Positions 12,963 to 34,862 of a DNA stretch of 64,000 nucleotides are shown piece after piece. Position 1 is the stretch's first letter; every line of letters begins with the position of its first letter. This stretch comes from Microbacterium arborescens (lineage in GTDB: Bacteria; Actinomycetota; Actinomycetes; Actinomycetales; Microbacteriaceae): NCBI RefSeq assembly GCF_030369635.1, contig NZ_CP128474.1:62001-126000 (forward strand), given 5' to 3'. Both the position numbers and the translations under genes were made by a program. Under the pieces are notes generated by a model. That model searched no databases and was not told the DNA's origin. It worked only from the letters and a program-made list of their open reading frames with translations.

Positions 12963-13032
12963 CCGAGAACGTACCGTCGCCGCGAGCGCGCACCCTGAAC
13001 GGTACGTTTTCGCGGGAAGGGTGCGTTCTCGG
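12963..13032. repeat. 70-bp four-unit palindromic element, copy 1
   Basis: Four 14-bp units: U1 CCGAGAACGTACCG (12963-12976), U2 GCGAGCGCGCACCC (12982-12995), then inverted U3 CGGTACGTTTTCGC (13000-13013) and U4 GGGTGCGTTCTCGG (13019-13032). Spacers are 5, 4 and 5 nt, the same as in the copies at 15323 and 34793. It sits between the divergent metN and MFS genes; the rest of this 299-bp gap holds no other feature I can support. Confidence 0.8.
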
Positions 13033-13126
13033 GGCCGCGCCGCCACACGCGGGCACCGGCCGGACGGTCGGATGCCGCGGACGTTCGGTCGGGCGCCGAG
13101 CCGGAGGAGCGAGGAGCATCGGAAGC

Positions 13127-14335
13127 ATGACCTCGACCACACCCATCCCGCTGACCCACGAGAACGCCGCGCCCATGAGATATGGCGGCCTCATCGTCGT
13201 CATGCTCATGGGCTTCCTCGTGGTCACCGCGGAGTTCCTCCCCAACGGCGTGCTCACCGAGATGGCCGCGGGCCTCGGGGTGACGCCCGGGCAGGCGGGT
13301 CAGACGGTGACGGTCACCGCGCTCGCCGGGCTCATCGTGGCCCCGACGGTCGGCCTCGTCTTCCCGCGCATGGATCGACGGACTCTGCTCGTGTGGGCCG
13401 CGGCGGCGGCATCCGTGTCGAGCATCGTCGTCGCGCTCTCACCGCACCTCATTACGATCCTCGTCGCACGCTTCTTCCTCGGCGCCTCGATCAGCGCCTT
13501 CTGGTCGATGTCGATCACGGTCGCCGCCCGCCTCGCGGGCCCAGACCGCATCGGTCGGGCGATGATGTTCACCTCCGCTGGAGTGTCGCTCGCGACCGTG
13601 GCCGGTGTGCCGCTCGGCGTGCTCCTGAGCGAGGCCCTCGACTGGCGCATCGCGTTCGCCGTCGTGGGGGTGGCGACGGCTGCCGTCGCGTTGGCCGTGC
13701 GCCTCACCCTGCCTGCCGTGCCGGCCGCGGCGACGTCCAGTCTGCGGCTGCTCGTCGACTCGCTCCGGCGCACCGGTGTCGCAGCGGGCATGATCGGCCA
13801 TGTCCTGGTGGTGCTGGGACACTTCCTGGCGTACACCTACATCCGGCTGGCGCTGGAGCGGGTTCCGGATGTCGGCGCCGAGACGATCGTGCTGCTGCTG
13901 GCGGTGTTCGGCGCGGGCGGGCTCATCGGGAACCTCGCGATCGGGTTGCTCGTCGACCGAGCGTTCCGCGTGCTCGCCGTGACGGCGCCCGTCGTCATCG
14001 CCGCCGCGATCGCTCTCCTGGTGCTGCTGCCCGGGTCGATTCCGGTCGTCATCGCCGCCGTGTTCGCGTGGGGGTTCTTCTTCGCGTCGTGGCTCATCAT
14101 CGTGAACACGTGGGCGGGTCACCGGATGCCCGACCGGCTCGAGGCCGGCGGCAGCCTCACCGTGACCGGCTTCCAGCTCGCGATCATGCTCGCGGCCGGC
14201 CTCGGCGGGCTGCTGGTCGATCTCGCCGGTGTCGTCGCCGTCGATATCGTGGCCCTGTCGCTGCTCACGGTCGGCGCGGTGCTGTTCGGCTGGGTCGTCC
14301 GGACCCACGAGGCCGACCGGATGCGGCACGCCTGA
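13127..14335 (+). CDS. MFS transporter, DHA1 drug/nucleoside exporter type
   Basis: 402 residues from the ATG at 13127 (GAGGAG about 10 nt upstream). Twelve hydrophobic segments are visible. After TM1 (GFLVVTAEFLPNGVLTEMAAGLGVTPGQAGQTVTVTAL) comes the AraJ/NepI/YdhP pattern typical of the DHA1 subfamily, and the motif-A loop reads FPRMDRRTLLVW. The substrates of close families are sugars, arabinosides, purine ribonucleosides or drugs, and cannot be told apart here. The convergent AraC regulator ends 44 bp after it, so the two may form a regulator/transporter pair, but there is no shared promoter. Confidence 0.86.
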   Translation: MTSTTPIPLTHENAAPMRYGGLIVVMLMGFLVVTAEFLPNGVLTEMAAGLGVTPGQAGQTVTVTALAGLIVAPTVGLVFPRMDRRTLLVWAAAAASVSSIVVALSPHLITILVARFFLGASISAFWSMSITVAARLAGPDRIGRAMMFTSAGVSLATVAGVPLGVLLSEALDWRIAFAVVGVATAAVALAVRLTLPAVPAAATSSLRLLVDSLRRTGVAAGMIGHVLVVLGHFLAYTYIRLALERVPDVGAETIVLLLAVFGAGGLIGNLAIGLLVDRAFRVLAVTAPVVIAAAIALLVLLPGSIPVVIAAVFAWGFFFASWLIIVNTWAGHRMPDRLEAGGSLTVTGFQLAIMLAAGLGGLLVDLAGVVAVDIVALSLLTVGAVLFGWVVRTHEADRMRHA

Positions 14336-14379
14336 CGAGGCTCCCTCGGCGAGGTGCCGCGCCGGGGGCGGCGTGGTCG

Positions 14380-15252
14380 TCAGCGCAACGCCGCCGCCGA
14401 CGCCCGGGCGCGCCACAGCGAGGGCGCCATCCCGGTGTGGCGGCGGAAAGCGCGGCTGAAGCCTTCGTCCGAGCCGTAGCCCAGGGCGCGTGAGGTATCC
14501 GAGACGGACGCACCCGACTCGAGCATGTCCTTGGCGTGCTGCATCCGGATCTCGGCGACGTAGCCCGCGGGAGAGCGTCCGTAAGCGCGCCGGAACCGTG
14601 CGGCGAACACTGTCCGCGACATGGCGCTGAGGCTCGCGAGCTGGTCGATGGTCCAGTCGTGACCGGGGTCGGCGGCGACGGCCTCGGCGGCGCGGCTGAG
14701 GAACGGGTCGACTGTCGGTGCGGGCCAGACCGAGGCGCCGGCGGTGTGCGCCGCCCACGCCCGGATGGCCGAGAGCAGCACGGTCTTGACCATCATCCGG
14801 CAGATCACCGCGTCGCCGGATCGCGCCGAGGTGGTACCCGCGCCGAGGTGGCTGACGAGTGCGGCCGCCGCAGGCTCGAGTGCGACGAAACCGTCGACGA
14901 AGACGAACGGAGGCAGCGGCGTCACGGCAGCGAGCGAGACGTCGGCCGGGACGACGGTGAGTTGCGCGCCCGACTGCGAGGTCAGTGAGATCGGACGACA
15001 TCCGAGGCTCACGAAGGCGTCGCCGGCGAGGAGCGTGCGCGCCCCGGAAGCGGCGGCGGCATCGCCCGAGAGCCCGGCGACCGTGCAGCTCGTGCCGGAT
15101 GCGGGATCCCCGGTGATCTCGCCCGATCGCACATAGACCAGCGTGGCTTCGCCGGTGCCGAGGTGCAGCGACCCGTCGGGGGCGAGGTGCGTTCGGCGGG
15201 CCGTGCCCGGACGGATCTCGAGGGATGCCAGGGCCTGCTCGAGCGCGATCAC
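14380..15252 (-). CDS. AraC-family transcriptional regulator
   Basis: 290 residues from a GTG. The N-terminal 180 residues form a cupin-type AraC ligand domain (as in the cupin_6 group, with RSGDAVICRMMVKTVLLSAIRAW). The C-terminal 100 residues hold the double helix-turn-helix: WTIDQLASLSAMSRTVFAARFRRAYGRSPAGY and VSDTSRALGYGSDEGFSRAFRRHTGMAPSLWR. It converges on the MFS gene and may control it, as AraC/cupin_6 regulators often neighbour exporters or oxidoreductases. Upstream lies the second copy of the 70-bp element. Confidence 0.9.
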   Translation of the reverse strand: MIALEQALASLEIRPGTARRTHLAPDGSLHLGTGEATLVYVRSGEITGDPASGTSCTVAGLSGDAAAASGARTLLAGDAFVSLGCRPISLTSQSGAQLTVVPADVSLAAVTPLPPFVFVDGFVALEPAAAALVSHLGAGTTSARSGDAVICRMMVKTVLLSAIRAWAAHTAGASVWPAPTVDPFLSRAAEAVAADPGHDWTIDQLASLSAMSRTVFAARFRRAYGRSPAGYVAEIRMQHAKDMLESGASVSDTSRALGYGSDEGFSRAFRRHTGMAPSLWRARASAAALR

Positions 15253-15322
15253 GCTTCCGACAACGCCATCCCCCGCGGCCCCATTCCGCCGCGCGTCCCC
15301 GGGCGCCCCCGCGCGCTCGCGC

Positions 15323-15392
15323 GCGAGAACGCACCGCCGCCGCGAGCACGCACCCGGCGCGGTGCGCTCTCGCCGAGAGGGTGCGTCCTCGC
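15323..15392. repeat. 70-bp four-unit palindromic element, copy 2
   Basis: U1 GCGAGAACGCACCG (15323-15336), U2 GCGAGCACGCACCC (15342-15355), inverted U3 CGGTGCGCTCTCGC (15360-15373) and U4 GGGTGCGTCCTCGC (15379-15392), with 5-4-5 nt spacers. U1 pairs with U3 at 13 of 14 positions and U2 with U4 at 13 of 14. It lies between the AraC gene start and the cyclophilin stop, both on the minus strand. Confidence 0.8.
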
Positions 15393-15420
15393 CCCGCCGC
15401 CGCCGCCGCCCGCCTCGGGC

Positions 15421-16089
15421 TCAGCCGAGCGTGACGCCGGTGATCGTGACCGGAGTCGCGGGCGCGCCGTCGGCAGCGCCGCCCTCGGCACCGGCCGCGG
15501 CCACCTCGCGCACGACGGCGAGGCCCGCCTCGTCGAGCGTGCCGAAGACGGTGTACTTGGCGGGCAGCGGGGTGTCCTCGTACACGAGGAAGAACTGCGA
15601 GCCGTTCGTGTTCGGCCCGGCGTTGGCCATCGCGACCGTTCCGGCCGGGTAGGTCTCGCTGCCGTCGAGCTCGTCGGCGTAGTTGTATCCGGGGCCACCG
15701 CGGCCGGTTCCCGACGGGTCGCCGCACTGCAGCACGAAGATACCCGAGGTGGTGAGGCGGTGGCAGGGCGAGTCGTTGTAGTACCCCTGCTCGGCGAGCG
15801 ACACGAAGCTGCCCACCGTGCAGGGCGTGCGCTCGGCATCCAGGGTCATGGGGATGTCGCCGGCCGACGTCTGCAGGACGGCCGACACCTGACCCGTCAC
15901 CTCCGACTCGGCGGGCGGGAGCTGCACGTCGCGCACGCCGCCAGCAGCCTCGACGTAGGCGCAGGCGCCCTCCGGGACGGTCTCGGCGGTCGGCATCGTG
16001 TCGGGCTCGGCTGGCGTGGGCGACGATGCGCATCCGGCGAGAGCGAGAGCCGACAGGACGAGGAGGGCGGAACCGAGGCGAGCGCGCAT
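15421..16089 (-). CDS. Cyclophilin-type peptidyl-prolyl cis-trans isomerase lipoprotein
   Basis: 222 residues. Lipobox LALAGC puts the modified Cys at about residue 20, so the protein is anchored outside the membrane. A Pro/Glu-rich linker precedes the cyclophilin fold (about residues 75-222): TLDAERTPCTVGSFVSLAEQGYYN, CHRLTTSGIFVLQCGDPSGTGRGGPGY, GTVAMANAGPNTNGSQFFLVY and KYTVFGTLDEAG. Catalytic-loop residues of active cyclophilins (HR..., QFF) are kept. A role in folding secreted proteins is inferred. The ATG follows TAGGCT by exactly 6 nt with no ribosome-binding site, so the gene is probably leaderless. Confidence 0.92.
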   Translation of the reverse strand: MRARLGSALLVLSALALAGCASSPTPAEPDTMPTAETVPEGACAYVEAAGGVRDVQLPPAESEVTGQVSAVLQTSAGDIPMTLDAERTPCTVGSFVSLAEQGYYNDSPCHRLTTSGIFVLQCGDPSGTGRGGPGYNYADELDGSETYPAGTVAMANAGPNTNGSQFFLVYEDTPLPAKYTVFGTLDEAGLAVVREVAAAGAEGGAADGAPATPVTITGVTLG

Positions 16090-16247
16090 GATCAGAGCCT
16101 ACGGTCTCGGATGCCGCCTGCCGGGCACCGGAATCGACGCGATTCGGTAGCGGGAGCGAGGCCCGGATGCCGGAGCTGGCCAGCACGCGCTGCGAGTGGC
16201 ACGATCGGACCGTGATGCTCGCGTCGCGGGCCGCGGAAGGGGTGGCG

Positions 16248-16694
16248 ATGGGTGACAACACGGCGGGCGGTGCCGGGTTCTCCGACGAGGAGAAGGCCGC
16301 GATGAAGCAGCGGGCCGAGGAGCTGCGTTCGACGAAGGGGCTGAAGGGCGCCGCGAAGCTCGCGAAGGAGCTCGAGGCGTGCATGGAGGCGATCGACGCG
16401 CTCGCGGGGATCGACGGCGAGGTCGCCCGCATGGTCCACCGGATCGTCTCGGAGGAGGCATCCGACCTCGACCCGAAGACGTTCTACGGATTCCCCGCCT
16501 ATGCGCGCGCCGGCAAGGTCGTCATCTTCGTGCAGCCCAAGTCGAAGTTCGACACCCGCTATCCGACGCTGAACTTCGACGAGACGGCCTCGCTCGATGA
16601 CGGGGCGATGTGGCCGACGTCGTTCGCGATCGTCGAGGTCACTCCCGAGGTCGAGCGTCGCGTGCGGGATCTGGTTCGCGCTGCGATCGACTGA
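16248..16694 (+). CDS. DUF1801/YdhG-like protein of unknown function
   Basis: 148 residues from the ATG at 16248, which has GGAAGG 7 nt upstream; the frame is open back to 16167, but without a site. The N-terminal 50 residues are charged and helical (KAAMKQRAEELR, KGAAKLAKELEACMEAI). The rest matches the DUF1801 pattern FYGFPAYARAGKVVIFVQPKSKFDTRYPTLNF followed by LDDGAMWPTSFAIVEV. Proteins of this group are small, soluble and uncharacterised (some are annotated as iron chaperones). Its last 56 bp overlap the 3' end of the PAP2 gene on the other strand. Confidence 0.75.
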   Translation: MGDNTAGGAGFSDEEKAAMKQRAEELRSTKGLKGAAKLAKELEACMEAIDALAGIDGEVARMVHRIVSEEASDLDPKTFYGFPAYARAGKVVIFVQPKSKFDTRYPTLNFDETASLDDGAMWPTSFAIVEVTPEVERRVRDLVRAAID

Positions 16695-17382
16695 GCTCCG
16701 ATCGACTGAGCCCCGGGGTCGGCGAGAGCGGGATCGCCCGCGGTTCTCGCGTCGCCGCGATCGCGATGACCGTCAGCAGAGCGGGCACGGCGAGGCCGAG
16801 CAACGATCCCGCGGCTACGTCATGCAGATAGTGGGCGCCTTCGAACAGCCGCCCCGAAAAGACGATGAGCGCCGCGGCAACGGCCATCCACGTCGCCCAC
16901 GCCCGGCGCGCGGCGACAGCGATGACCCAGACCGCCCCCATCGCGAGCACGGCGTGGTTCGAGGGGAAGGCGTAGTCCGTGGGGTCGCAGACGGTCAGCG
17001 CGGTCCAGCGGGTGCACGGGCGGGCCTGCATGAGCGCCACCTTGACCATCTCGCTGGTGGCGTAGGCGATCACCACTCCGCCGGCCGCGGCGATCGAGAT
17101 GATGCGGCGTCGCGAGCCGCCCCGCAGTGCGACCGCCAGTGATACGACCGTGCCGACGGCGAGGAGCGCCAGGAAGCCGTCCGAGAGGTAGGCGGTCGCC
17201 GGCAGCGCGAGTCCGACGGTCATCGCCTCGCGCGTCACCAGGACGCTGAGGCTCGCGCCCCACCAGGGAATGATCAGCGCGGCTGCCGCGACCAGGGCGA
17301 CAGCGGACACAGGCAGTATCGAGGAACGGGGTACGGCGGTGCTCACCTCAGCCACGCTAGGAAACGCCGCGTCGCGCGGCAT
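16639..17382 (-). CDS. PAP2-superfamily membrane phosphatase
   Basis: 247 residues with about six TM segments. The three acid-phosphatase motifs are present: KVALMQARP (KX6RP type), PSNH in YAFPSNHAVLAMG, and SGRLFEGAHYLHDVAAG (SR-X-H type with Gly-Arg). The family dephosphorylates lipid phosphates such as phosphatidate or undecaprenyl pyrophosphate at the membrane. The last 40 residues are polar and run antisense into the 3' end of the DUF1801-like gene (56 bp overlap), so the true C-terminus relies on the reading frame alone. The ATG at 17382 has a weak GAAAG upstream; GTG codons about 10 residues downstream are possible. Confidence 0.85.
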   Translation of the reverse strand: MPRDAAFPSVAEVSTAVPRSSILPVSAVALVAAAALIIPWWGASLSVLVTREAMTVGLALPATAYLSDGFLALLAVGTVVSLAVALRGGSRRRIISIAAAGGVVIAYATSEMVKVALMQARPCTRWTALTVCDPTDYAFPSNHAVLAMGAVWVIAVAARRAWATWMAVAAALIVFSGRLFEGAHYLHDVAAGSLLGLAVPALLTVIAIAATREPRAIPLSPTPGLSRSELSRSQREPDPARDARPRE

Positions 17383-17427
17383 CCGCTTTCAGGCGGTCTC
17401 GCATCCTCCCCGAGGTGTATTCCTCGC

Positions 17428-18111
17428 TCAGGAGAGCAGCGCCTCCGCTCGCAGGGTGAGCGCGATCGCGACGAGCGTCGACAGCAGTCCGGAGGCCAGC
17501 AGCAGACCCGGATGCGCGAGCCCGATCACGATCTGGCGCGTACGCGGCGCATCGGCGAGGAAGTGCTCGGGGATGCGGTGGCGCGTGGGCACCGCTGACC
17601 AGCCCCGCAATCGCACGAGGTAGCCCGCATAGCGGATGATCAGCACGCAGTACAGCAGGACGGTCACCGGCGGAACGATGCGCGCGAAGAGGTCGGCTGC
17701 GGTGAGCCAGGCCGTCTCGATGTTCGTGCCGCTCTCGTCGGCGAGCTGAACGGCGATCGCGCCGCCGATCACGACCGAGCCCAACCAGAACACGAAAGCG
17801 CTGAAGAGAGCGAGGAAGCGTGCGAAGAAGTGGGTCAGGATCGACGGTTCGTACTCCAGGTGCGATCTCGGGGTCTGCGACAGCACGATGAGCGTCGCTA
17901 CCAGCGGCGGAAGCGCCGCGGTGAGGGTGAGGGTCGCGCGCAGCCAGTGCGGTCCGCCGAGGAGGTCGCACACGATGAGCAGGACCACCACGGCCATCAT
18001 CCACACCAGGCCGAGCGCTGTCGGGTGCGAGGTCACGAACGAGGGATGATGCTCCTCCAGCCGGGCCCCGGCTCGCTCGACGAGGCGCCGCCCCCGATCA
18101 TTCGTCGTCAC
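17428..18111 (-). CDS. Hypothetical integral membrane protein
   Basis: 227 residues from a GTG with about four or five hydrophobic segments: LGLVWMMAVVVLLIVCDLL, TLTLTAALPPLVATLIVL, FLALFSAFVFWLGSVVIGGAIAVQL, VPPVTVLLYCVLIIRYAGYLVRL and LLLASGLLSTLVAIALTL. The N-terminal 35 residues are cytoplasmic and charged. I do not recognise the family. The GTG follows TAGCAT by 6 nt and has no ribosome-binding site, so it is likely leaderless. The downstream neighbour is the PAP2 phosphatase on the same strand after a 45-bp gap. Confidence 0.75.
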   Translation of the reverse strand: MTTNDRGRRLVERAGARLEEHHPSFVTSHPTALGLVWMMAVVVLLIVCDLLGGPHWLRATLTLTAALPPLVATLIVLSQTPRSHLEYEPSILTHFFARFLALFSAFVFWLGSVVIGGAIAVQLADESGTNIETAWLTAADLFARIVPPVTVLLYCVLIIRYAGYLVRLRGWSAVPTRHRIPEHFLADAPRTRQIVIGLAHPGLLLASGLLSTLVAIALTLRAEALLS

Positions 18112-18193
18112 GGGTGGATGCTATCGCCGGCGACGCCCCGGCGGGCAGGGTTCATGCTGAGGGGACGAGGAACTGGGGAAGGACGACGGCCTG

Positions 18194-18712
18194 TCAGACG
18201 CGTTCGGGCTGGAGGAGTGTCTGCAGCAGTGACCGTGCTCGTGCGTGTCGACTGCGCACGGTCGCGGGGTTCATCCCGAGGTGTAGCGCGACGTCCGCCA
18301 GGGTGAAGCCGTCCCAGTAGACGAGGCGGATGATCTCTTGATCAATGGTCTGGAGTTCGGCGATCGCGGCGCGCACGTCGGCGGCGTGGTCGTGTTCCTC
18401 GGCCGGCGCCATATGTGCGAGGTGGTGGGCGAGCTTGTCTGTGAGCGCATGCCGACGCGCACGTGACCGCCAGCTTTGAGAGAGCAAGCGGCGAGCGATA
18501 CCGAACATCCACATCCGCGCCTCAACGGGGTCGGTAGGGACAAGCCGCACCTTCCGCCACACGACGACGAGCGTCTCACCCAGAAGGTCAGCAGCGTCCT
18601 CGCGATCGGGAACTCGCCGCACGAAGTAGTCCAGGAGCGAACCGGCGTGGTCCTTCACCAACTGAGCGACCCGCTCGTCGTTCGTCACAGCGGGTTCAGG
18701 CGCCCCCGTCAA
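18194..18712 (-). CDS. ECF-type RNA polymerase sigma factor
   Basis: 172 residues. Sigma region 2 (about residues 25-85) reads LLDYFVRRVPDREDAADLLGETLVVVWRKV and WMFGIARRLL. Region 4 (about 115-168) is ELQTIDQEIIRLVYWDGFTLADVALHLGMNPATVRSRHARARSLL. The start is a TTG at 18712 that overlaps the stop of the upstream gene (ATTGA). A GGGAG site 7 nt before the TTG lies inside that upstream gene and supports this start over the GTG at 18688. It is the second gene of a two-gene operon behind a one-TM protein, the reverse of the usual sigma/anti-sigma order. Confidence 0.9.
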   Translation of the reverse strand: MTGAPEPAVTNDERVAQLVKDHAGSLLDYFVRRVPDREDAADLLGETLVVVWRKVRLVPTDPVEARMWMFGIARRLLSQSWRSRARRHALTDKLAHHLAHMAPAEEHDHAADVRAAIAELQTIDQEIIRLVYWDGFTLADVALHLGMNPATVRSRHARARSLLQTLLQPERV

Positions 18713-19239
18713 TGCAACTCTCCCGTGCAGTCGGTGTCACTGCCGACACCACCGTCGCCGGGGAGGATGTACTCGTCGGCGCCAGCGAAGATCACATCCT
18801 GCGCCGCCCCGAAGAATGGCGCGAATTCACCGGCCACGTCGCGTTTGACGGCCTCGTCGTAGATCCGCTGTCCTACGCCGTCCCAGTTCTGCGCCGCGAT
18901 GAACTCGACGGCTTTCGTGTTTGTCTCGGAGTAGTTCGTTTCGCCGTTGAAGAGCTCGATCGAGCACGAGATCTCGCGGCCGGTGTCGGTGACGTACGAG
19001 ATGGGGATCTCGAGATCGGGGATCATTCGCGGGTCGGTGCCGGCTGTGGACGCGAGTGCGATCCCCGGGAGGGCGAGCACGGGCACCGCGACCCACGACA
19101 GGCGGCGGACACGGCGTCGCCGCGCCGCGCGAACACGCGCCGCGACCCCAAGGCGGTCGATTTCAGCTGCGACCATTCCGTCCGTTGATGCGCGGTGCGG
19201 GGCACTTGCCCGCAGCAGGCTATCGATCGATGTGTCCAT
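18709..19239 (-). CDS. Single-TM protein coupled to the ECF sigma factor (possible anti-sigma partner)
   Basis: 176 residues. The N-terminal 40 residues are cytoplasmic and Arg-rich (ARVRAARRRRVRRLS), then comes a TM segment (WVAVPVLALPGIALA) and a 110-residue external domain beginning with DPRMIPDLEIPISYVTDTG and ending in an acidic tail. Two Cys (in SCSIEL and DTDCTGE) lie outside and could form a disulfide. It overlaps the sigma gene by a few bases. The topology fits a membrane regulator of the sigma factor, but no zinc anti-sigma motif (HxxxCxxC) is seen in the cytoplasmic part, so the role is inferred. AGGAGG lies 5 nt before the ATG. Confidence 0.7.
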   Translation of the reverse strand: MDTSIDSLLRASAPHRASTDGMVAAEIDRLGVAARVRAARRRRVRRLSWVAVPVLALPGIALASTAGTDPRMIPDLEIPISYVTDTGREISCSIELFNGETNYSETNTKAVEFIAAQNWDGVGQRIYDEAVKRDVAGEFAPFFGAAQDVIFAGADEYILPGDGGVGSDTDCTGELH

Positions 19240-19416
19240 GGCGTCCTCCTAGATGCTCACCACGTACATGGCCGGCACTCGTCCAAACGTTGCACGACAG
19301 CGGAAAGTCAGAGCGGAGGGTGCGAGCCACGTTGGTCGCGTCGCCCGGTGGCGGTCCGACGGCCTTCACGACCCGAGGCGGTCGTCCGCTACCGCTGCGC
19401 CCGGGCGGGTAAGGAG
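19240..19416. other. Intergenic region without a recognised gene
   Basis: This is the first part of the 455-bp gap between the sigma operon and the FBP-domain gene. It must hold the promoter of the minus-strand sigma operon and the -35 of the plus-strand leader transcript. I see no reading frame with coding character, repeat or clear -35/-10 pair. Confidence 0.4.
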
Positions 19417-19422
19417 TAGCCT
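19417..19422 (+). promoter_or_regulatory. -10 box of the FBP leader transcript
   Basis: TAGCCT, exactly 6 nt before a GTG that opens a 34-codon frame. The same -10/N6/start spacing is seen at many leaderless genes in the window. No clear -35 is seen. Confidence 0.5.
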
Positions 19423-19428
19423 GGGCGT

Positions 19429-19533
19429 GTGAGTACCGTCCGTCTGCCGATGCCCTCTGGGCGTGAGGGGGTCTCCGGCGCGCTCAGCGCCGGCGGCACA
19501 GGCGCGGCATCCTTCGTCCTCCTCGCCGGTTGA
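19429..19533 (+). CDS. Putative leader peptide upstream of the FBP-domain gene
   Basis: 34 codons from a GTG at 19429 to TGA at 19531-19533, beginning VSTVRLPMPSGREGV and ending ASFVLLAG. It has no ribosome-binding site, but a TAGCCT -10 box ends exactly 6 nt before it, so a leaderless message starting at this codon is likely. The frame covers a perfect 7-bp hairpin (CCGGCGC/GCGCCGG, 19475-19493), and its stop codon lies in the loop of GCCGG-TTGAT-CCGGC. A further 160 nt of structured leader precedes the downstream ATG. This layout resembles translation-attenuated leaders of ribosome-protection genes. Its translation is not proven; the frame could also be chance. Confidence 0.4.
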   Translation: MSTVRLPMPSGREGVSGALSAGGTGAASFVLLAG

Positions 19534-19580
19534 TCCGGCGCGCGTCGCGTCGACCCGTGTCCGCGATGCGCTCTCCCGGT

Positions 19581-19607
19581 CCCGGGCGACGACTCCGTCG
19601 TTCCGGG
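19581..19607 (+). promoter_or_regulatory. Stem-loop in the FBP leader
   Basis: CCCGG...CCGGG outer and ACGAC-TCC-GTCGT inner pairing form a hairpin between the leader-peptide stop and the FBP start. There is no U-run after it, so if it acts it may be as an antiterminator or a translational block rather than a classical terminator. Confidence 0.3.
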
Positions 19608-19694
19608 ATGATCCGCTCACGACCGTCCGCTCGCCGTCTCTTCCTGGCGTGATGCGACGGTGGTGCGCGAACGCGTACTCAGACAGGACCCTTC

Positions 19695-20186
19695 ATGTTC
19701 GCTCTCACCGCGAAGTCCATTCGCTCCTCCTTCGTCAACGTCTCGCTCCGCGAGCGCAACTCGCTCGTCGTCCCCGCCGACCTCGGCGACGTCGACTGGT
19801 CGACCCGTGACTGCTACGGGTGGCGCGACCCCAAGACCCCGCTGCTCGGCTTCGTCGTCGCCGAGGTCGACGGGCAGGCCGTCGGCCTGCAGCTGCGACA
19901 GGCCGACCAGGCCACGCGCACCCGTCCGCAGTGCTCGTGGTGCTGCGACGTCACCCTCCCCAACGAGGTTGTCTTCTTCGCCGCGAAGCGGGCGGGCAAG
20001 GCCGGTCGCGCGGGCAATACCGTCGGGACGCTGCTGTGCTCGGGGTTCGAGTGCTCGCGCAACGTCCGTCGCCTCGACCCGCCGCCCTACCTCGGGTTCG
20101 ACGCCGCCGCAGCGCGCGATCGCCGCATCGCCATGCTGCAGACCAACGTCGACGCGTTCTTCCGCGACCTGCGCGACGGGGCCTGA
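19695..20186 (+). CDS. FBP-domain (EF-G-binding-like, treble-clef zinc finger) protein
   Basis: 163 residues. The C-terminal half has the FBP_C pattern: RTRPQCSWCCDVTLPNEVVFFAAKRAGKAGRAGNTVGTLLCSGFECSRNVRR, with CxxC (CSWC) and a second Cys pair (LLCSGFECSRNVR) that would hold one zinc, as in FusB-type proteins that bind elongation factor G and rescue ribosomes from fusidic acid. Actinobacterial homologues are mostly untested. AGGA lies 8 nt before the ATG, and a 270-nt transcribed leader with a probable leader peptide precedes it, which supports a translation-linked control. Role in translation or antibiotic response is inferred. Confidence 0.82.
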   Translation: MFALTAKSIRSSFVNVSLRERNSLVVPADLGDVDWSTRDCYGWRDPKTPLLGFVVAEVDGQAVGLQLRQADQATRTRPQCSWCCDVTLPNEVVFFAAKRAGKAGRAGNTVGTLLCSGFECSRNVRRLDPPPYLGFDAAAARDRRIAMLQTNVDAFFRDLRDGA

Positions 20187-20217
20187 ACCGCGCGACGGGC
20201 CACGCCGCTCGCGCGGT

Positions 20218-20484
20218 TCAGGCCGTCGTCGCGATGTCCGCAAGCATCGCGTCGGCCGCCAGCGTGTCGAGCGAGAGCCCGAGGCTCGTGGCGACAGCGG
20301 CGACGGTCGCGAACGACGGGGTCGCGAGGCGGCCGGTCTCGATCTTCCGCAGCGTCTCGGGCGAGACGCCGGCGGCAGCGGCGACGTCCGTGATCGACCT
20401 GTCGCCCCGCGCTCGCCGGAGGTGTGCGCCGAGGCGGCGGCCGCGCTCGACGGCTTCGGGCGTGAGCGCGCGACGGACCATCAT
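20218..20484 (-). CDS. XRE-family regulator
   Basis: 88 residues from the first of two adjacent ATGs (20484). The HTH_3 domain (about residues 15-75) reads LGAHLRRARGDRSITDVAAAAGVSPETLRKIETGRLATPSFATVAAVATSLGLSLD. The frame is open further upstream to 20682, but that part is a shadow of the MetAP gene. The ATG follows TACGAT by exactly 6 nt, so it is probably leaderless, and that -10 overlaps the palindrome TACCGGTA (20495-20502). It is divergent from, and probably controls, the methionine aminopeptidase gene at 20540. Its 3' end lies 31 bp from the FBP stop. Confidence 0.88.
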   Translation of the reverse strand: MMVRRALTPEAVERGRRLGAHLRRARGDRSITDVAAAAGVSPETLRKIETGRLATPSFATVAAVATSLGLSLDTLAADAMLADIATTA

Positions 20485-20494
20485 GCGCTCATCG

Positions 20495-20528
20495 TACCGG
20501 TATAGTTTGACCGGTATTTTTATACCGG
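20495..20528. promoter_or_regulatory. XRE operator array between xre and the MetAP gene
   Basis: Three copies of an ACCGGTAT-type half-site: TACCGGTA palindrome (20495-20502), ACCGGTAT (20510-20517), and ATACCGG inverted (20522-20528), the last two separated by TTTT. The first covers the xre -10 box; the last abuts the MetAP ribosome-binding site. The short AT-rich centre contrasts with the surrounding sequence. Dual control of both genes is inferred. Confidence 0.65.
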
Positions 20529-20539
20529 AGGAGCCACGA

Positions 20540-26418: not shown

Positions 26419-26433
26419 CCTCGCTCCCTCCGA

Positions 26434-26448: not shown

Positions 26449-26468
26449 TTCTATCTGCGGGGCGATGC

Positions 26469-26497: not shown

Positions 26498-26509
26498 GAC
26501 GTCGCTCGA

Positions 26510-26523: not shown

Positions 26524-26551
26524 TCCGATGAGCTGGGGCAGAGGAGCTTTG

Positions 26552-28116
<1,565 letters not shown>

Positions 28117-28120
<4 letters not shown>

Positions 28121-29460
28121 CTCAGCCCGACACCGCCCCCGTCCGCACCGGCGGGCTGGCCGACATCCGCAAAGCGTTCGGCAGCGGACAATCCACTCTG
28201 CGGCAGTTCGGCATCCTCGGATCGCTCGTGCTGATCATCCTCGTGTTCCAGATCTGGACGAACGGTCTGACCCTGTCGTCGGGCAACCTCATCAACGCGA
28301 TCAACCAGAACTCCTACATCCTGATCCTCGCGATCGGCATGGTGATGGTCATCATCATGGGGCACATCGACCTGTCGGTCGGGTCGGTCGCCGCCTTCAC
28401 CGGCATCGTGGTGGCGAAATCAATGGCTGACTGGAACCTCCCATCGTCGCTCGCGATCGTGCTCGGCCTCGTCGTCGGCGTGCTCATCGGCGCGTGGCAG
28501 GGATTCTGGGTCGCCTACATCGGCGTGCCGGCGTTCATCGTCACCCTCGCGGGGATGCTGATCTTCCGGGGTCTGAACCAGATCGTCGGGCAGTCGACCA
28601 CGCTCGCCGTGCCCGCCGACTTCCAGATGATCGGCGCGGGGTACCTGCCCGAGCTCCCCTTCATCCCGCTGCCGTTCAACGTGCTGACGCTCGCACTCGG
28701 CGTCCTCGGAGCGCTGTGGATCGTCGTCAACGAGATCCGCCTGCGCCGGCGCCAGGCCAAGACCGGCGCCGAATCCGCCCCGCTGTGGGTCTCGATCCTC
28801 AAGGTCGTCGTCGTGGGTGGCGTCATCCTCATCGCCGCGTACTTGTTCGCCACGGGGCGGCCGGGCACCGGTTTCCCGATCTCGGGCGTCATCCTCGTCG
28901 CGCTCGTCATCCTGTACTCGTTCATCACCAACAACACGACCTTCGGCCGACGCATCTACGCGGTCGGCGGCAACCGTCTCGCAGCGACGCTCTCAGGGGT
29001 GAAGGACCGCCGCGTCGACTTCTTCGTGATGATGAACATGTCGGTGCTGGCCTCGCTCGCGGGCATGATCTTCGTCGCCCGCTCGGGTGCCTCCGGGCCG
29101 CAGGACGGCAACGGGTGGGAGCTCGACGCGATCGCGGCCGTGTTCATCGGCGGCGCCGCGGTCTCGGGCGGCATCGGAACGGTCATCGGCGCCATCATCG
29201 GTGGACTCGTGATGGCCTTCCTCAACAACGGCCTGCAGCTCGTCGGCACCGGCGCCGACCTCGTGTCGGTCATCAAGGGCCTCGTGCTGCTGTTCGCCGT
29301 CGGCATCGACGTGCTGAGCAAGGCGACCGGGCGCCCGTCGATCATCGGCCTCTGGTCGGCGCGACGCCGTGCCCGAGCCGACGTCCCCACACCTCCGACT
29401 GTCTTGCCGACCGCCGGAACCAATGAGACCAGTCAGCCCGTCGATGCCGGTCGTCGATGA
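28117..29460 (+). CDS. mmsB: Monosaccharide ABC transporter permease (MmsB/GguB type)
   Basis: 447 residues from the ATG at 28117, which overlaps the ATPase stop (ATGA). There are about ten TM segments, longer than the 330-residue RbsC family, as in the GguB/XylH group. The AraH/RbsC-type motif [20 protein letters not shown] is at about residue 80, and [44 protein letters not shown] near the C-terminus. A 30-residue polar tail ends the protein. It is the membrane channel partner of the ATPase and ChvE-like protein. Confidence 0.93.
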
Positions 29461-29510
29461 CGACACCGCTCGCTGATGGCTCTCCGCACCGAAGAAAAGA
29501 GATGAATGCA

Positions 29511-30629
29511 ATGAAGAAGATCGCTCTCGCCGTCACCGCACTCGCGGTCACGGCGCTGGCCCTGTCGGCGTGCTCCAATGCGCGCACCGACGCGGGCGCC
29601 GGCGGCGACGCCTCCGCTGCGGCGGGCTTCGCGGCCGACGCGACGATCGGCGTCGCTCTGCCCGACAAGACCAGCGAGAACTGGGTGCTCGCGGGCGACC
29701 TGTTCACGAAGGACCTCGAGGCCGCCGGCTTCAAGGCCGACGTGCAGTACGCGCCGGCATCCAACACGGTCGCCGAACAGCAGAACCAGATCTCCGCGAT
29801 GATCACCAACGGTGCGAAGGTCATCGTCATCGGCGCGAAGGACGGCAAGCAGCTCGGGACCCAGCTGCAGCAGGCCGCCGACGCCGGCGTGATGATCATC
29901 GCCTACGACCGGCTGCTCGAGAACAGCGAGAACGTCGACTACTACGTCGCGTTCGACAACTTCAAGGTCGGGCAGCTGCAGGGGCAGGCGCTGCTCGACG
30001 GGCTCGAGGCCCGGTCGGGCCATGGCGCGCCGTGGAACATCGAGTTGTTCTCGGGGTCGCCCGACGACGCGAACTCTGCTGTGTTCTTCAACGGTGCGAT
30101 GGACGTGCTGCAGCCGAAGATCGATGACGGCACGCTCGTCGTGAAGTCGGGCCAGACCGAGATCGCGCAGACCGCGACTCAGGGCTGGAAGGCCGAGAAC
30201 GCTCAGAGCCGCATGGACTCGATCCTCACCTCGACCTACAGCAGCGACACGCTCGACGGTGTGCTCTCACCGAACGACACCCTGGCCCGAGCCATCCTCA
30301 CCTCGGTGAAGCAGGCCGGGAAGGATGTCGCGACCTTCACGGTCACCGGTCAGGACTCCGAGGTCGAGTCGGTGAAGTCGATCATGGCCGGCGAGCAGTA
30401 CTCGACCATCAACAAGGACACCGCCCTGCTCGTCGAGCAGACGGTCAAGATGATCGGCCAGCTGCAGCAGGGCGAGGATGCCGATGTCAACGACACCGAG
30501 CAGTACGACAACGGCGTGAAGGTCGTTCCCGCGTACCTGCTCGAGCCCGTGATCGTCACGAAGGAGAACGCCGCCGAGGCGTACGCCAACGTCCCGAGCC
30601 TCCTCGAGATCGTGACGGCGGCGCAGTAA
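29511..30629 (+). CDS. chvE: ChvE-type monosaccharide-binding lipoprotein
   Basis: 372 residues from the ATG at 29511; ATGs at 29502 and 29457 are in frame upstream. Lipoprotein signal MKKIALAVTALAVTALALSACSN (Cys about 21). The mature protein has the ChvE features GVALPDKTSENWVLAGDLF, AYDRLLENSENVDYYVAFDNFKVG, LFSGSPDDANSAVFFNGAMDVL and TGQDSEVESVKSIMAGEQYSTINKDT. ChvE proteins bind xylose, glucose, galactose or arabinose. It is the last gene of the operon and is followed after 15 nt by a strong terminator. Confidence 0.94.
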   Translation: MKKIALAVTALAVTALALSACSNARTDAGAGGDASAAAGFAADATIGVALPDKTSENWVLAGDLFTKDLEAAGFKADVQYAPASNTVAEQQNQISAMITNGAKVIVIGAKDGKQLGTQLQQAADAGVMIIAYDRLLENSENVDYYVAFDNFKVGQLQGQALLDGLEARSGHGAPWNIELFSGSPDDANSAVFFNGAMDVLQPKIDDGTLVVKSGQTEIAQTATQGWKAENAQSRMDSILTSTYSSDTLDGVLSPNDTLARAILTSVKQAGKDVATFTVTGQDSEVESVKSIMAGEQYSTINKDTALLVEQTVKMIGQLQQGEDADVNDTEQYDNGVKVVPAYLLEPVIVTKENAAEAYANVPSLLEIVTAAQ

Positions 30630-30644
30630 CCCGTAAACGCTCTC

Positions 30645-30689
30645 AGAACCGGCCCCCAGCTCTCTCGCTGGGAGCCGGTTCTCTGTGTT
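30645..30689 (+). terminator. Intrinsic terminator of the sugar ABC operon
   Basis: Stem arms 30645-30660 and 30667-30682 pair over 16 positions with one mismatch (AGAACCGGC.CCCAGC), around a 6-nt loop, followed by CTGTGTT. The stem starts 16 nt after the chvE stop codon. Confidence 0.85.
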
Positions 30690-30809
30690 ACGCCGTATCT
30701 CCGTGCGTGTCGCCGTGTGAGCAGACGCCACGACACCGGTGTCTTCGGCGGCCTACTGTCGTGCGATCCGCAGCAGTCGCTGCATCCGCGCCGTTCCGAG
30801 GAGACCCGA

Positions 30810-31823
30810 ATGACCGACACCGTCTCGCGCGTCGACCCCGCCGTCGGCGATCCCGCGCCCGCCACGCGGCGCGTCGACCTCGGCGACATCCCCGTCGTCC
30901 GCACGCGGCATTGGTTCCGCTGGGCGATCGCGGCGATCATCGTGTTCGTCGTCGCGCAGTTCCTGTGGTCGCTCGTGACGAACGAGAACTACGAGTGGGA
31001 CTACTTCGCGCAGTACTTCTTCTCCGACCCGGTACTGCAGGGCCTCGGCCTCACCCTCGTATACACGGGGGTGTCGGCGACCATCGGGTTCCTCCTCGGC
31101 ACGGTGCTCGCCCTCGCGCGGCTGGCGAAGTCGCCGCTGCTGAACGCCGCGGCATGGAGCTTCATCTGGTTCTTCCGCTCGGTTCCCCTCGTCGTGCAGC
31201 TGGTCGTCTGGTACAACCTCGGGTACCTGTATCCGACGCTCGGACTGGGCACCCCGTTCACGACGGACTTCTGGATCGTGGAGTTTCCCACCGTCCAGCT
31301 CATCAGCGCGTTCGCGGCGGGAGTGCTCGGCCTGAGCCTGCACCAGGCGGCCTACTCCGCCGAGATCATCCGCGGGGGCCTGCTCTCTGTCGACCAGGGC
31401 CAGCTCGAGGCGGCGGCGGCTCTCGGCATCCCGCCGCGTCGCCGGCTCAGCCGCATCGTGCTGCCGCAGGCCATGCGGTCGATCATCCCGAACGCCACCA
31501 ACGAGGTGATCGGTCTCGTGAAGGGCACCTCGGTGCTGTTCGTCATCGCGATTCCCGAGCTGTTCTACGCGGTGCAGGTGATCTACAACCGCAACAGTCG
31601 CGTCATCCCGCTGCTGCTCGTCGCGGTCGTCTGGTACACGATCATCACCACAGTGCTCAGCATCCTGCAGTACTACATCGAGCGTCACTACGCGCGGGGA
31701 TCGGTGCGGGTACTGCCGCCCACCCCCGTGCAGCGAGCGCGCCACTGGGTCGCCGTGCAGTGGGCCCGCCTCGGCGACGATGCGCCGGCACCCCGTCCCC
31801 TCGCCCACGGAGGAGAGTCATGA
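30810..31823 (+). CDS. Polar amino-acid ABC transporter permease
   Basis: 337 residues from the ATG at 30810 (AGGAG 7 nt upstream). After a 60-residue cytoplasmic N-terminus come about five TM segments and the His/Glu-type permease motifs: LGLTLVYTGVSATIGFLLGTVLALARLAKSPLL, FFRSVPLVVQLVVWYNLG, and the EAA loop QLEAAAALGIPPRRRLSRIVLPQAMRSIIPNATNEVIGLVKGTSVLFVI. It is the first gene of a permease-ATPase-binding protein operon (4-nt overlap with the ATPase). A likely -10 (TACTGT) is about 55 nt upstream. Homodimeric use is implied, as no second permease is nearby. Confidence 0.93.
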   Translation: MTDTVSRVDPAVGDPAPATRRVDLGDIPVVRTRHWFRWAIAAIIVFVVAQFLWSLVTNENYEWDYFAQYFFSDPVLQGLGLTLVYTGVSATIGFLLGTVLALARLAKSPLLNAAAWSFIWFFRSVPLVVQLVVWYNLGYLYPTLGLGTPFTTDFWIVEFPTVQLISAFAAGVLGLSLHQAAYSAEIIRGGLLSVDQGQLEAAAALGIPPRRRLSRIVLPQAMRSIIPNATNEVIGLVKGTSVLFVIAIPELFYAVQVIYNRNSRVIPLLLVAVVWYTIITTVLSILQYYIERHYARGSVRVLPPTPVQRARHWVAVQWARLGDDAPAPRPLAHGGES

Positions 31824-32587
31824 CCATCGGTCTCGTCGAGATCCACAACGTCCACAAGAGCTACGGGGGCATCGAGGTGCTCGGCGGCATCGACCTCACG
31901 GTGCAGCCGGGCGAGATCGTCGCGATCCTCGGCGCCAGCGGCTCGGGCAAGTCGACGCTGCTGCGCACCATCAACCACCTCGAGACGGTCGACCGTGGAT
32001 CGGTCACGGTCGACGGCGAGTTCATCGGCTACGAGCAGCGCAACGGCAAGCTCTACGAGCTGCGCGAGAAGGCGGTGCTCGAGCGGCGCACGCAGATCGG
32101 GATCGTCTTCCAGAACTTCAACCTCTTCCCTCACCTCACGGCGCTCGAGAACGTCACCGAGGCGCCCATCGCCCTCGGCCGGCTGTCGAAGGACGACGCC
32201 CGCGAGCTCGCGATCGGCCTGCTCGACCGCGTGGGTCTCGGCGACAAGGCCGGCCATTACCCGCGTCAGCTCTCGGGCGGTCAGCAGCAACGCGTCGCGA
32301 TCGCCCGCGCCCTGGCCCTCAAGCCCAAGGTGATCCTGTTCGACGAGCCGACGAGCGCACTCGACCCCGAACTCGTCGGTGAGGTGCTCGACGTCATCCG
32401 CGACCTCGCGCAGCTGGGCACGACCCTCATCATCGTCACCCACGAGATCGGCTTCGCCCGCGAGGTCGCCGACCGCGTCGTCTTCCTCGACGGTGGCCGG
32501 ATCATCGAGCAGGGTCCGCCGACCGAGGTGCTCGTCGCGCCGAAGCACCCGCGCGTGCAGGAGTTCCTCGCCAAGGTCCTCGCCTGA
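31820..32587 (+). CDS. Polar amino-acid ABC transporter ATP-binding protein
   Basis: 255 residues from the ATG at 31820, overlapping the permease stop (ATGA). Walker A is GASGSGKST (about residue 38), the Q-loop is VFQNFNLFPHLTALENVTEAPI, signature LSGGQQQRVAIARAL, Walker B VILFDEPTSALDPELVGEVLDV and the H-loop IIVTHEIGFAREVADRVVFLDGG. This is the GlnQ/HisP-type subfamily. An insert, IGYEQRNGKLYELREKAVLERR, is the usual one for this group. Confidence 0.95.
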   Translation: MTIGLVEIHNVHKSYGGIEVLGGIDLTVQPGEIVAILGASGSGKSTLLRTINHLETVDRGSVTVDGEFIGYEQRNGKLYELREKAVLERRTQIGIVFQNFNLFPHLTALENVTEAPIALGRLSKDDARELAIGLLDRVGLGDKAGHYPRQLSGGQQQRVAIARALALKPKVILFDEPTSALDPELVGEVLDVIRDLAQLGTTLIIVTHEIGFAREVADRVVFLDGGRIIEQGPPTEVLVAPKHPRVQEFLAKVLA

Positions 32588-32638
32588 CCTTCCCCGTCCC
32601 GTTCCGCCCCACCACACCCTTCGAGAAAGACCCACAGC

Positions 32639-33631
32639 ATGGCCATCAGCAAGAAGCAGAGCATCGCCGCCGGACTCGGCGTCGTCGCGGTCGCGGCGAT
32701 CGTCGGCGGCATCGTCACCGCCGTGAACCTCAACCGACCCGCCGAGGCCGAGGCTGCGGCGCCCGCGGCCACCACGGCGAACGTCGCGACCGACGACATC
32801 CACTGGGTGCACCTCGACGAGCCCGTCGCCGATGCCGTCGCGGCCCTCGAGGCGAGCGGCTTCGAGCCTGTCGAAGAGGGGAAGCTCACCGTCGCCCACT
32901 CCGCTTACCTGCCGCCGCTCGGCTACATCCCCGAGGGTGAGACCAGCGCCGCGGGCACCGAGCCGAACATCGGCTCGCTGATCGCCGAGGCGCTCGGCCT
33001 CGAGTACAACCCGGTGGTCGTGGCGTGGGCCGACTGGCCCCTCGGCATCCAGTCGGGCAAGTACGACCTCATCACCTCGAACGTCACCGTCACCGAAGAG
33101 CGCAAGGAGCTCTACGACTTCGCGAGCTACCGCGAAGACCTGCTCGGCTTCTACGTCCGTGCCGACAGCGACATCGAGAAGATCGAGGAGGCCGCCGACA
33201 TCTCGGGTCTGAGAATCGTCGTCGGCTCGGGCACGAACCAGGAGCAGGTGCTGCTCGCCTGGAACGACGAGCTCGAGGCGGCCGGCGAGGCCCCGGCCGA
33301 GCTGCAGTACTACGACGACAACGCCGCAGCCGTCCTCGCGCTGCAGTCCGGACGCGTCGACGCCACCTTCGGACCCAACGCCACCTCGGCCTGGTCGGCG
33401 CGCGAGACCGGTGACACCAAGCTCGTCGGCCTCGTGCCGGGAGGCTGGCCGCAGACCGCCAACATCGCCGCGGCGACCGCGAAGGCCAACGGCCTCGTCG
33501 AGCCGGTGTCGATCGCGATCAACGCCATCATCGAGGGCGGCCAGTACGACGAGGTCCTCGAAACCTGGGGGCTCGAGTCGGAACGCGTCGAGAAGAGCGA
33601 GATCAACCCTCCTGGCCTTCCGGCGTCGTGA
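32639..33631 (+). CDS. Family-3 amino-acid substrate-binding protein
   Basis: 330 residues. The N-terminus (MAISKKQSIAAGLGVVAVA) is a signal sequence or membrane anchor with an AEA cleavage site near residue 38, and unlike the other binding proteins here it has no lipobox Cys. The solute-binding fold shows GKLTVAHSAYLPPLGY, EPNIGSLIAEALGLEYNPV, YDLITSNVTVTEERKELYDFASY and GLRIVVGSGTNQEQVL. It completes the ABC transporter with the two upstream genes after a 51-nt gap. How it is retained at the cell surface is not clear from the sequence. Confidence 0.9.
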   Translation: MAISKKQSIAAGLGVVAVAAIVGGIVTAVNLNRPAEAEAAAPAATTANVATDDIHWVHLDEPVADAVAALEASGFEPVEEGKLTVAHSAYLPPLGYIPEGETSAAGTEPNIGSLIAEALGLEYNPVVVAWADWPLGIQSGKYDLITSNVTVTEERKELYDFASYREDLLGFYVRADSDIEKIEEAADISGLRIVVGSGTNQEQVLLAWNDELEAAGEAPAELQYYDDNAAAVLALQSGRVDATFGPNATSAWSARETGDTKLVGLVPGGWPQTANIAAATAKANGLVEPVSIAINAIIEGGQYDEVLETWGLESERVEKSEINPPGLPAS

Positions 33632-33678
33632 ATGGGTATGCGTCGTGAACGGGTCTCGGTGAGAGGTAGCGTCACATC

Positions 33679-34785
33679 GTGACATCGACCGCGACAGCCC
33701 TCACCATCCGGCTCGTCCGCACCGAGGAGTTCGCTCGGGCGGGCGACCTGACCGCCCGTGCCTACCGGCACAGCTACGGCGAGCTCTCGGAGCACTACCT
33801 CGCCTCGCTGCGCGACGTCGCCACACGCGTGCAGAGCGGCGACGTGTGGGTGGCGGTGGATGGCGGCGGGCGCGCGGATGCCGCCGCAGATACCGCTGCC
33901 GAGGCCGACATCCTCGGAACCGTGTGGGTCGCTCGGCCGAACCGGCCGCTGGCCGGTGTCGCGCAGCCCGGCGAGACCGATTTCCGACAGCTCGCCGTTG
34001 CGCCCGAGGCGCGCGGCCGCGGCGTCGGCGAGGCGCTCGCCCGGCACGTCATCGAGCTGGCCCGCCAGCGCGGATCGCACCGCGTCGTCATGAACAGCGG
34101 GCCCGAGATGACCGCCGCGCACGCGCTCTACGCCAAGCTCGGTTTCTCGCGCCTGCCCGAACGCGAGGGACGAATCGAGGTCGAGCCGGGCCGTTTCGTC
34201 GATCTGCTCGCCTTCGGTTACGACCTCGAGCCGGAGCCCTCGGCCCCGACCGGCACCGCCTCGACCGGCACCCCCGCGGGCGGCTCGGCGCCGACGTGGC
34301 TCCTCGAGCACATCGACTACGACGACTCCCGTGCGGTCGCCCTCCGCGCCGAGATGGACCGCGAGGTCGGCCCGCGATACGCCGACCGCTTCGACGAGGC
34401 CGACCCCGAAGCCGCCGCCCGATCCGCCCGCGCTTTCGCCCTCGACCCCGAGACGATCGTGGCGACGGTGCTCGTGACGGATGCCGCGGGCGAGGCGCTC
34501 GGTCACGGTGCGCTGCGCGACCTCGAGCACGACGGCATCCGCGACCTCGAGATCAAGCGCGTGTACGTGCACCCGCGGGCTCGCGGGCTCGGCGCGAGCC
34601 GTGCTCTCATCGCCGAGCTCGAACGCATCGCGCGCGACCGCGGCGCCGCGCGCGTCATCCTGCAGACCGGCGACCGCCAGCATGACGCCGTCGTGCTGTA
34701 CGAGCGCCTCGGGTACACGCCGATCCCGATCTACGCCCCCTACACCGAGTACACGTTCTCCCGCTGCTTCACCAAGCCCCTGTAG
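33679..34785 (+). CDS. Tandem (two-domain) GNAT acetyltransferase
   Basis: 368 residues from a GTG. Two GNAT domains are fused: domain 1 (about residues 8-180) with TDFRQLAVAPEARGRGVGEALARHVIELARQRG and HALYAKLGFSRLPER, and domain 2 (about 205-365) with LEIKRVYVHPRARGLGASRALIAELERIARDRGA and VLYERLGYTPIPIY. A Thr/Pro-rich linker (SAPTGTASTGTPAGG) joins them. The GTG follows TAGCGT by exactly 6 nt, so it is likely leaderless and separate from the ABC operon. Its place beside an amino-acid transporter and two flavin monooxygenases fits N-acetylation of an S-modified cysteine, but that is inference. Confidence 0.85.
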   Translation: MTSTATALTIRLVRTEEFARAGDLTARAYRHSYGELSEHYLASLRDVATRVQSGDVWVAVDGGGRADAAADTAAEADILGTVWVARPNRPLAGVAQPGETDFRQLAVAPEARGRGVGEALARHVIELARQRGSHRVVMNSGPEMTAAHALYAKLGFSRLPEREGRIEVEPGRFVDLLAFGYDLEPEPSAPTGTASTGTPAGGSAPTWLLEHIDYDDSRAVALRAEMDREVGPRYADRFDEADPEAAARSARAFALDPETIVATVLVTDAAGEALGHGALRDLEHDGIRDLEIKRVYVHPRARGLGASRALIAELERIARDRGAARVILQTGDRQHDAVVLYERLGYTPIPIYAPYTEYTFSRCFTKPL

Positions 34786-34792
34786 ATTCCCG

Positions 34793-34862
34793 CCGAGCAC
34801 GCACCGTCTCCCCGAACACGCACGCTAAGCGGTGCGTTCTCGGCGCAACGATGCGTTCTCGC
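34793..34862. repeat. 70-bp four-unit palindromic element, copy 3
   Basis: U1 CCGAGCACGCACCG (34793-34806), U2 CCGAACACGCACGC (34812-34825), inverted U3 CGGTGCGTTCTCGG (34830-34843) and U4 CGATGCGTTCTCGC (34849-34862), with the same 5-4-5 nt spacing as the copies at 12963 and 15323. It starts 7 nt after the GNAT stop. Confidence 0.8.

Follow-up and report, generated by a model that had tools for sequence, protein, structure and literature searches.

A dispersed four-box DNA element of Microbacterium with an AbiEi-like protein as its likely partner

A 64,000-nt stretch of the Microbacterium arborescens chromosome (hereafter the window) holds three copies of a short intergenic element with a fixed internal layout, which raises the question of what kind of element this is and what acts on it. 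Each copy spans 68 bp and consists of four 12-bp boxes, two forward and then two inverted, with starts at 0/19/37/56 in all three copies (box consensus CGAGAACGCACC), the same layout that a preliminary description of the window had given as 14-bp units with gaps of 5, 4 and 5 nt. The three copies were found again at the places described there, with identical box starts, and a scan for the geometry that left the box sequence unspecified returned exactly three elements in the window (threshold 50/72; scores 59, 64 and 59), compared with a top score of 53 in 1.17 Mb of dinucleotide-shuffled sequence from 30 other loci in the genus. As argued below, we hold it to be quite probable that cognate AbiEi-like proteins use the elements as binding platforms, and that the elements spread in the manner of repetitive extragenic palindromic (REP) elements and were then kept by selection.

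Copies beyond the window, which the preliminary description had proposed to look for, were found in the genome that contains it (G000; 3.37 Mb, a single contig). The box GGTGCGTTCTCG occurred 130 times with at most one mismatch, against 12 occurrences of its reversed control, and a model built on sequence only recovered 29 full elements, each matched once on either strand (58 matches; expectation value (E) ≤1.6e-10; next match at E 0.003). All 38 half-element matches in this genome lay inside full elements, which identifies the four-box set as the unit; on the same evidence, a parent transposon with separated element halves was rejected. The elements are intergenic, except that 3 of 29 reach 22-34 nt into the end of a gene, as judged from gene calls made with our own simple gene finder. 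One whole element appears to have been duplicated in tandem recently (G000:C1:278357 and 278520, 163 bp apart), and apparent tandem duplications were also seen in genome G128 (locus L145, three copies ~130 bp apart; L378, three copies ~150-175 bp apart).

Comparison with close relatives showed that boxes and spacing are under selection while the spacers drift. When all three spacings were left free, 104 of 108 elements scoring at least 36/48 (loci fetched from five close genomes) read as 19/18/19, in agreement with the fixed unit spacing claimed earlier, and the other four gave a shifted reading of the inner box at unchanged total length. The relatives compared were those whose loci best matched a window protein, namely Microbacterium sp. 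AG238, sp. Yaish 1, M. arborescens, sp. SMR1 and sp. cf332. Elements 1 and 2 of the window stand at the same places in the first four of these, and in cf332 element 1 is represented by a decayed half only; element 3 is found in G164 and G165, is missing from G166 and G074, and is reduced to one remaining box in G167 (G164 to G167 are four of the five relatives, M. arborescens not being among them). Between G000 and G165 (20 element pairs), changes were counted at 92/960 box positions, 75/280 positions of the 7-nt gaps, 50/120 positions of the central six and 158/970 positions of aligned intergenic flank, the last with 417 additional gap columns. The corresponding counts for boxes, gaps, central six and flank were 79/912, 66/266, 39/114 and 137/836 against G166 (19 pairs), 44/384, 27/112, 20/48 and 56/273 against G167 (8 pairs), and 27/1248, 21/364, 15/156 and 59/1525 against G164 (26 pairs). 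Between species (three relatives), change amounts to 9-12% of box positions versus 24-42% of spacer positions, a measure of box conservation that misses decayed copies such as the one of cf332 at element 1. A tandem duplicate (G000_278520), an element with a shifted inner box (G000_1408808), an ambiguous G166 pair and any pair in which one or both flanks had no match were excluded from these comparisons.

A candidate partner protein was found among the neighbours of the elements. In a survey of 275 genes beside 143 elements of 50 genomes, most of the recurrent families were either generic (ABC, helicase, SDR) or, in the case of permease and PaaK-like neighbours, repeated chiefly in genomes that share a box type. 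An AbiEi-like protein was singled out because it recurred next to different box types across three families of the order, being a neighbour in the window genome, G214, G335 and G409, with elements on both sides of the gene in all four. The gene of the window genome (G000:C1:2972516-2973469, minus strand) lies outside the window, codes for 318 aa and has elements at 2972343 and 2973572 on its two sides; no AbiEi-like homologue was found in the window or in 80 related loci. Of 149 Microbacterium genomes, 124 encode a homologue. A box-agnostic scan of 70 homologue loci (30 returned first and 40 chosen, partly since their genomes carried elements) detected an element within 900 bp at 59 loci, compared with 18 of 73 control loci, and elements on both sides at 43 loci, compared with 2 of 73. 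The controls were loci around an MFS gene (73 of 80, seven under 8 kb having been dropped), and they are biased upwards because that gene had been picked as an element's neighbour. Taken alone, the first 30 homologue loci included 24 with an element and 16 with elements on both sides, and shuffles of these loci contained 0.1 elements per 117 kb, compared with 50 found. As a rule, the gene of the likely partner has a copy of the element next to it or on both sides. A second AbiEi-like homologue is encoded in the window genome (G000:C1:901845-902750; L431) and is bracketed by elements with a box close to CGAGTGCACGG; a pattern search for dispersed copies of this second family returned none, but the same search missed the family's two bracketing elements.

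Box sequence was also found to follow the protein. At 40 loci, upstream and downstream boxes had a similarity of 0.817 within a locus compared with 0.531 between loci, and the upstream element matched its own downstream element best, or tied, at 23 of them. Across 59 loci, box similarity rose with protein identity (Mantel r 0.22; 0/2000 permutations), and the four closest protein pairs, 81-91% identical and from different genomes, had box similarities of 0.81-0.86 compared with a mean of 0.53. These loci fell into 15, 25 or 37 box clusters at a similarity of 0.70, 0.75 or 0.80, respectively. Elements of the window's type (model R1, E 1e-9) occur in four of the 149 genomes (G000, G074, G100 and G072), and the closest proteins are those of G000, G074 (81%), G155 (56%) and G100 (54%), so that carriers and closest-protein genomes agree in three, counting the window genome. 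Across the genus, related proteins tend each to come with a distinct box sequence and a separate set of bracketing elements; CGAGAACGCACC and CGAGATGACCCG are the boxes of two such predicted protein-site pairs.

The partner family is ~310 aa long, and its N-terminal half matches AbiEi profiles. The best PADLOC AbiEi matches of three scanned proteins had E-values of 5e-11, 2e-12 and 6e-14; Pfam AbiEi_4 was detected in 15 of 49 members (E up to 0.1), with the protein of the window genome scoring 24.3 bits at a cut-off of 25, and the three other partner proteins scanned alongside matched no Pfam family. A sequence search of solved structures gave no match. The protein is under purifying selection, with no internal stop and a ratio of nonsynonymous to synonymous substitution rates (dN/dS) of 0.15-0.28 across six genomes. 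Residues invariant in 49 aligned members include D202, E210, D242, E253, D255, G256 and R281, with K259 kept in at least 90%, which we read, by comparison with motifs of this kind, as a putative PD-(D/E)XK-like site. Profile support for this reading consists of matches of single members to PF18741, a restriction-endonuclease family (E 0.005), and to DUF559 (E 0.065), which stand among unrelated families of similar E-value.

A broader model of the element found matches in 88 of 149 Microbacterium genomes (E 1e-4) and in 24 of 297 genomes of the order (E 1e-5), the latter in 12 of 94 genera; box sequence varies among genomes while the geometry is kept, and G006, G240 and G422 each hold two families. 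Plasmids and phages gave no matches, and viral contigs gave neither elements by the strict pattern nor relatives of the protein alignment. With spacings left free, the distance from box 1 to box 2 was 19 or 20 bp in 79 of 84 elements at partner loci, counted without six loci that hold tandem arrays. The middle distance was assessed in 96 elements found with it free, 41 of which were not anchorable; among the 55 anchored on a box start it was 18 in 8, 28 in 28, 29 in 7 and never 19-25, the remaining 12 having scattered other middle values or an outer spacing of 20. Middle distances of 17, and of 22 in one element (L338), are also on record. As the spacing classes mostly lie about one helical turn apart, we read the boxes as double-stranded binding sites in fixed phase. 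In the published account, AbiEi monomers bind to two 23-bp inverted repeats separated by 3 bp, and the Mycobacterium tuberculosis relative Rv2827c occupies four inverted repeats simultaneously, with pairs 13 bp apart, 10 bp wider than those of AbiEi, and four bound species (PMC7319586). This precedent supports one monomer per box and lends meaning to the 10-bp step. Given its co-variation with the boxes, the AbiEi-like protein very probably binds them, and four monomers per element are likely.

Further families were noticed in passing. Four-box elements with quite different boxes lie around MFS genes (L186, L188, L190, L171, L181, L197, L184, L196, L215 and L229; for example CGAGCCACCACG and CTTTCCCTCCCC), also in Agreia and Rathayibacter, which suggests many families per genome. 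In G006, a second family (C10:280688 and C15:58678; box close to CGAGATCACACG) is spaced 19/29/19, compared with 19/28/19 in the main family of that genome, and the same box brackets an AbiEi-like homologue in G088 (L426). Direct box arrays with a 20-bp period stand beside AbiEi-like genes or elements at L388, L392, L393, L408, L443, L372 and L375, and look as if single boxes can multiply, iteron-like.

With geometry, dispersal, bracketing, selection and protein-box co-variation shown computationally, the following mechanism can be proposed. Each element would be a double-stranded DNA platform on which AbiEi-like monomers, most simply one per box, sit in fixed helical phase on four asymmetric 12-bp boxes, arranged as a direct pair to either side of a dyad; the 318-aa bracketed protein would be the likely cognate of the window's family. 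Elements would have spread in the ancestors of each clade, often to the 3' ends of genes, and would afterwards have been inherited vertically under selection on the boxes. The C-terminal domain, perhaps a nuclease, may once have driven this spread, much as the REP-associated tyrosine transposase (RAYT) does for REP elements. Spread driven by the protein is proposed tentatively, and we are similarly hesitant about a self-dispersing class of elements in which an AbiEi-type protein with a nuclease-like domain would spread its own four-box site chromosome-wide, giving some two dozen protein-site pairs in the genus whose sites were then kept by selection.

Several observations weigh against this proposal. 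Eleven of the 70 homologue loci have no nearby element; G072 carries window-type elements and has no homologue at E 1e-10, and G155 encodes the 56% homologue and has no window-type element at E 1e-9, its own box type standing beside the gene. The C-terminal domain is perhaps nuclease-like, by weak resemblance, and binding, cleavage and mobility are steps that we infer. Two sites aligned in relatives have a pattern like losses, not insertions. A recount of neighbours for 114 elements of 49 other genomes (60% identity) showed that most share no neighbour with elements of the window genome, but at least four sites carry another box type beside the same genes (L145 and L378 in G128, L339 in G081 and L147 in G161, corresponding to window-genome elements 2629409, 3266690 and 1886472), and at L378 and L339 both neighbours are the same, which plain independent spreading does not predict. 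Neighbours are also shared at L124, but there the box is of the window's own type; a smaller sample of 44 elements had contained one shared neighbour with another box type (L145), and L128 had given only a weak ABC match. Shared sites with differing boxes indicate either favoured places or box change in place.

Sites that keep their place while the box type differs, two of them with both neighbours the same, would suit a host function in which place matters: protein-bound gene ends could serve as bidirectional roadblock terminators or chromosome organisers, the protein being a domesticated regulator and the bracketing elements its operators. Purifying selection on both boxes and protein across species fits such a role, as do the conservation of some element pairs around single genes and the arrangement of the neighbours, which are convergent at 14, co-directional at 11 and divergent at 3 of the 28 elements of the window genome with both neighbours called. 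However, the flanking genes have no common function by our reading, box sequence turns over between clades, most of the 114 foreign elements share no neighbour, and bracketing on both sides exceeds what autoregulation needs, so that we regard a host function of this kind as rather unlikely. A role as recombination sites, integron- or Xer-like, through which gene cassettes are gained and lost, is less likely still. Gene segments that lie between two elements in the window genome and G164 are replaced by a single element in G165 (G000:C1:140717-141861, elements 140717/141793; and 1408808-1410516, elements 1408808/1410449), and the two bracketing copies resemble each other more closely when compared directly at 22 loci and when compared inverted at 13, with ties at 5 (direct 6 versus inverted 1 for differences of at least 0.15). 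Yet the single element of G165 does not combine left and right halves as a clean hybrid would, and a central spacer of 6 or 16 bp is ill-suited to one crossover geometry. Cassette recombination at the element centre was set aside for this reason, the gene gain and loss being suggestive but no hybrid elements being found.

The element is also an imperfect palindrome, and the preliminary description had offered a folded RNA and a REP-associated tyrosine transposase among its proposals; RNA or single-stranded DNA hairpins resembling REP elements and bacterial interspersed mosaic elements (BIMEs), moved by a RAYT-like enzyme, nevertheless emerge as very improbable. Matches within and between elements were compared in 28 copies of the window genome (13 positions each), and the inverted box pairs showed no excess (1-4, 294 versus 294.9 expected; 2-3, 260 versus 271.8), nor did pairs 1-3 (287 versus 285.9) and 2-4 (284 versus 280.2), so that no pairing-specific covariation between boxes was detected in these copies. 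In seven other genomes pooled, boxes 1-4 exceeded expectation (z 2.86), but so did the direct pairs 1-2 (z 2.50) and 3-4 (z 2.95), whereas 2-3 did not (z 0.39). Co-variation that is equally strong in direct pairs and absent in 2-3 fits subfamilies rather than pairing. The two spacers of G422 co-vary (z 3.3). Box pairing noticed by eye in single copies failed a permutation test. The window has no Rfam match at gathering score, and PF01797 (Y1_Tnp, the RAYT family) has no match in the window genome, although 5 of 14 control genomes gave matches in the same search; the protein associated with the elements belongs to a different kind. The elements do not behave like RNA or hairpins, and a hairpin with conserved pairing arms is not supported. 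A few single elements from other families of the order have largely complementary spacers (L327, L334 and L335) or boxes or spacers that are largely complementary with some G-U-like mismatches (L327, L330, L334 and L335), and a hairpin may matter there.

Within the window, element 1 separates two divergent genes, a putative ABC-transporter ATPase and a putative MFS transporter. Element 2 lies between two minus-strand genes, ~29 nt past the stop of a putative peptidylprolyl isomerase and upstream of a putative AraC-like gene, and element 3 begins 8 nt after the stop of a putative GNAT acetyltransferase gene.

Table 1. Window coordinates of the three four-box elements and their boxes, with box orientation.
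Feature	Position	Box 1 (+)	Box 2 (+)	Box 3 (-)	Box 4 (-)
Four-box element 1	12964..13031	12964-12975	12983-12994	13001-13012	13020-13031
Four-box element 2	15324..15391	15324-15335	15343-15354	15361-15372	15380-15391
Four-box element 3	34794..34861	34794-34805	34813-34824	34831-34842	34850-34861

If the platform explanation is true, bacteria would have a second, unrelated route to REP-like dispersed elements, and AbiEi-like proteins, otherwise known as antitoxins, would have a genome-wide role. The 59 loci would constitute predicted natural protein-site pairs and a data set on how one DNA-binding fold shifts its specificity, and why selection maintains such sites at the ends of unrelated genes would become testable.

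In known RAYT systems, a single protein gene is flanked by REP elements. The elements described here resemble REP/BIME sequences and their RAYT in being short, palindromic, intergenic and family-specific, in having many dispersed copies (29 in 3.37 Mb) and in flanking one protein gene, and to that extent the earlier proposal of a REP/BIME-like mobile element or DNA-binding platform pointed in the right direction: the copies are scattered between genes, specific to a family and linked to a bracketed gene. They differ in their AbiEi-like protein, in four boxes of double-stranded type, in showing no hairpin constraint and in the lack of PF01797, and we do not class them as REP elements, as two defining features, a RAYT and a pairing hairpin, were tested and not found. 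Literature searches, confined to one library of papers, returned nothing on the box sequence, on AbiEi with DUF559, on DUF559 with inverted repeats, on intergenic palindromic repeats in Microbacterium or on REP/RAYT in Actinobacteria. Nor do we class the elements as a type IV toxin-antitoxin system, for which an adjacent AbiEii (DUF1814) toxin gene was not sought. Chromosome-wide dispersal and bracketing are not described in the part of the AbiEi/Rv2827c account used here (PMC7319586). With the operators in that part of the account, the elements share asymmetric inverted boxes, a protein whose N-terminal half matches AbiEi profiles and, in Rv2827c, binding to four boxes; an AbiEi-family protein is encoded at the site in the case of the partner gene only, not at the dispersed copies, and its C-terminus is, unlike theirs, perhaps a nuclease. 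Whereas those operators are, as described there, 23-bp repeats at one promoter, the elements reported here combine 12-bp boxes 19 bp apart with positions on both sides of a gene and across the chromosome, and they apparently represent a widespread, unnamed kind of bacterial DNA element.

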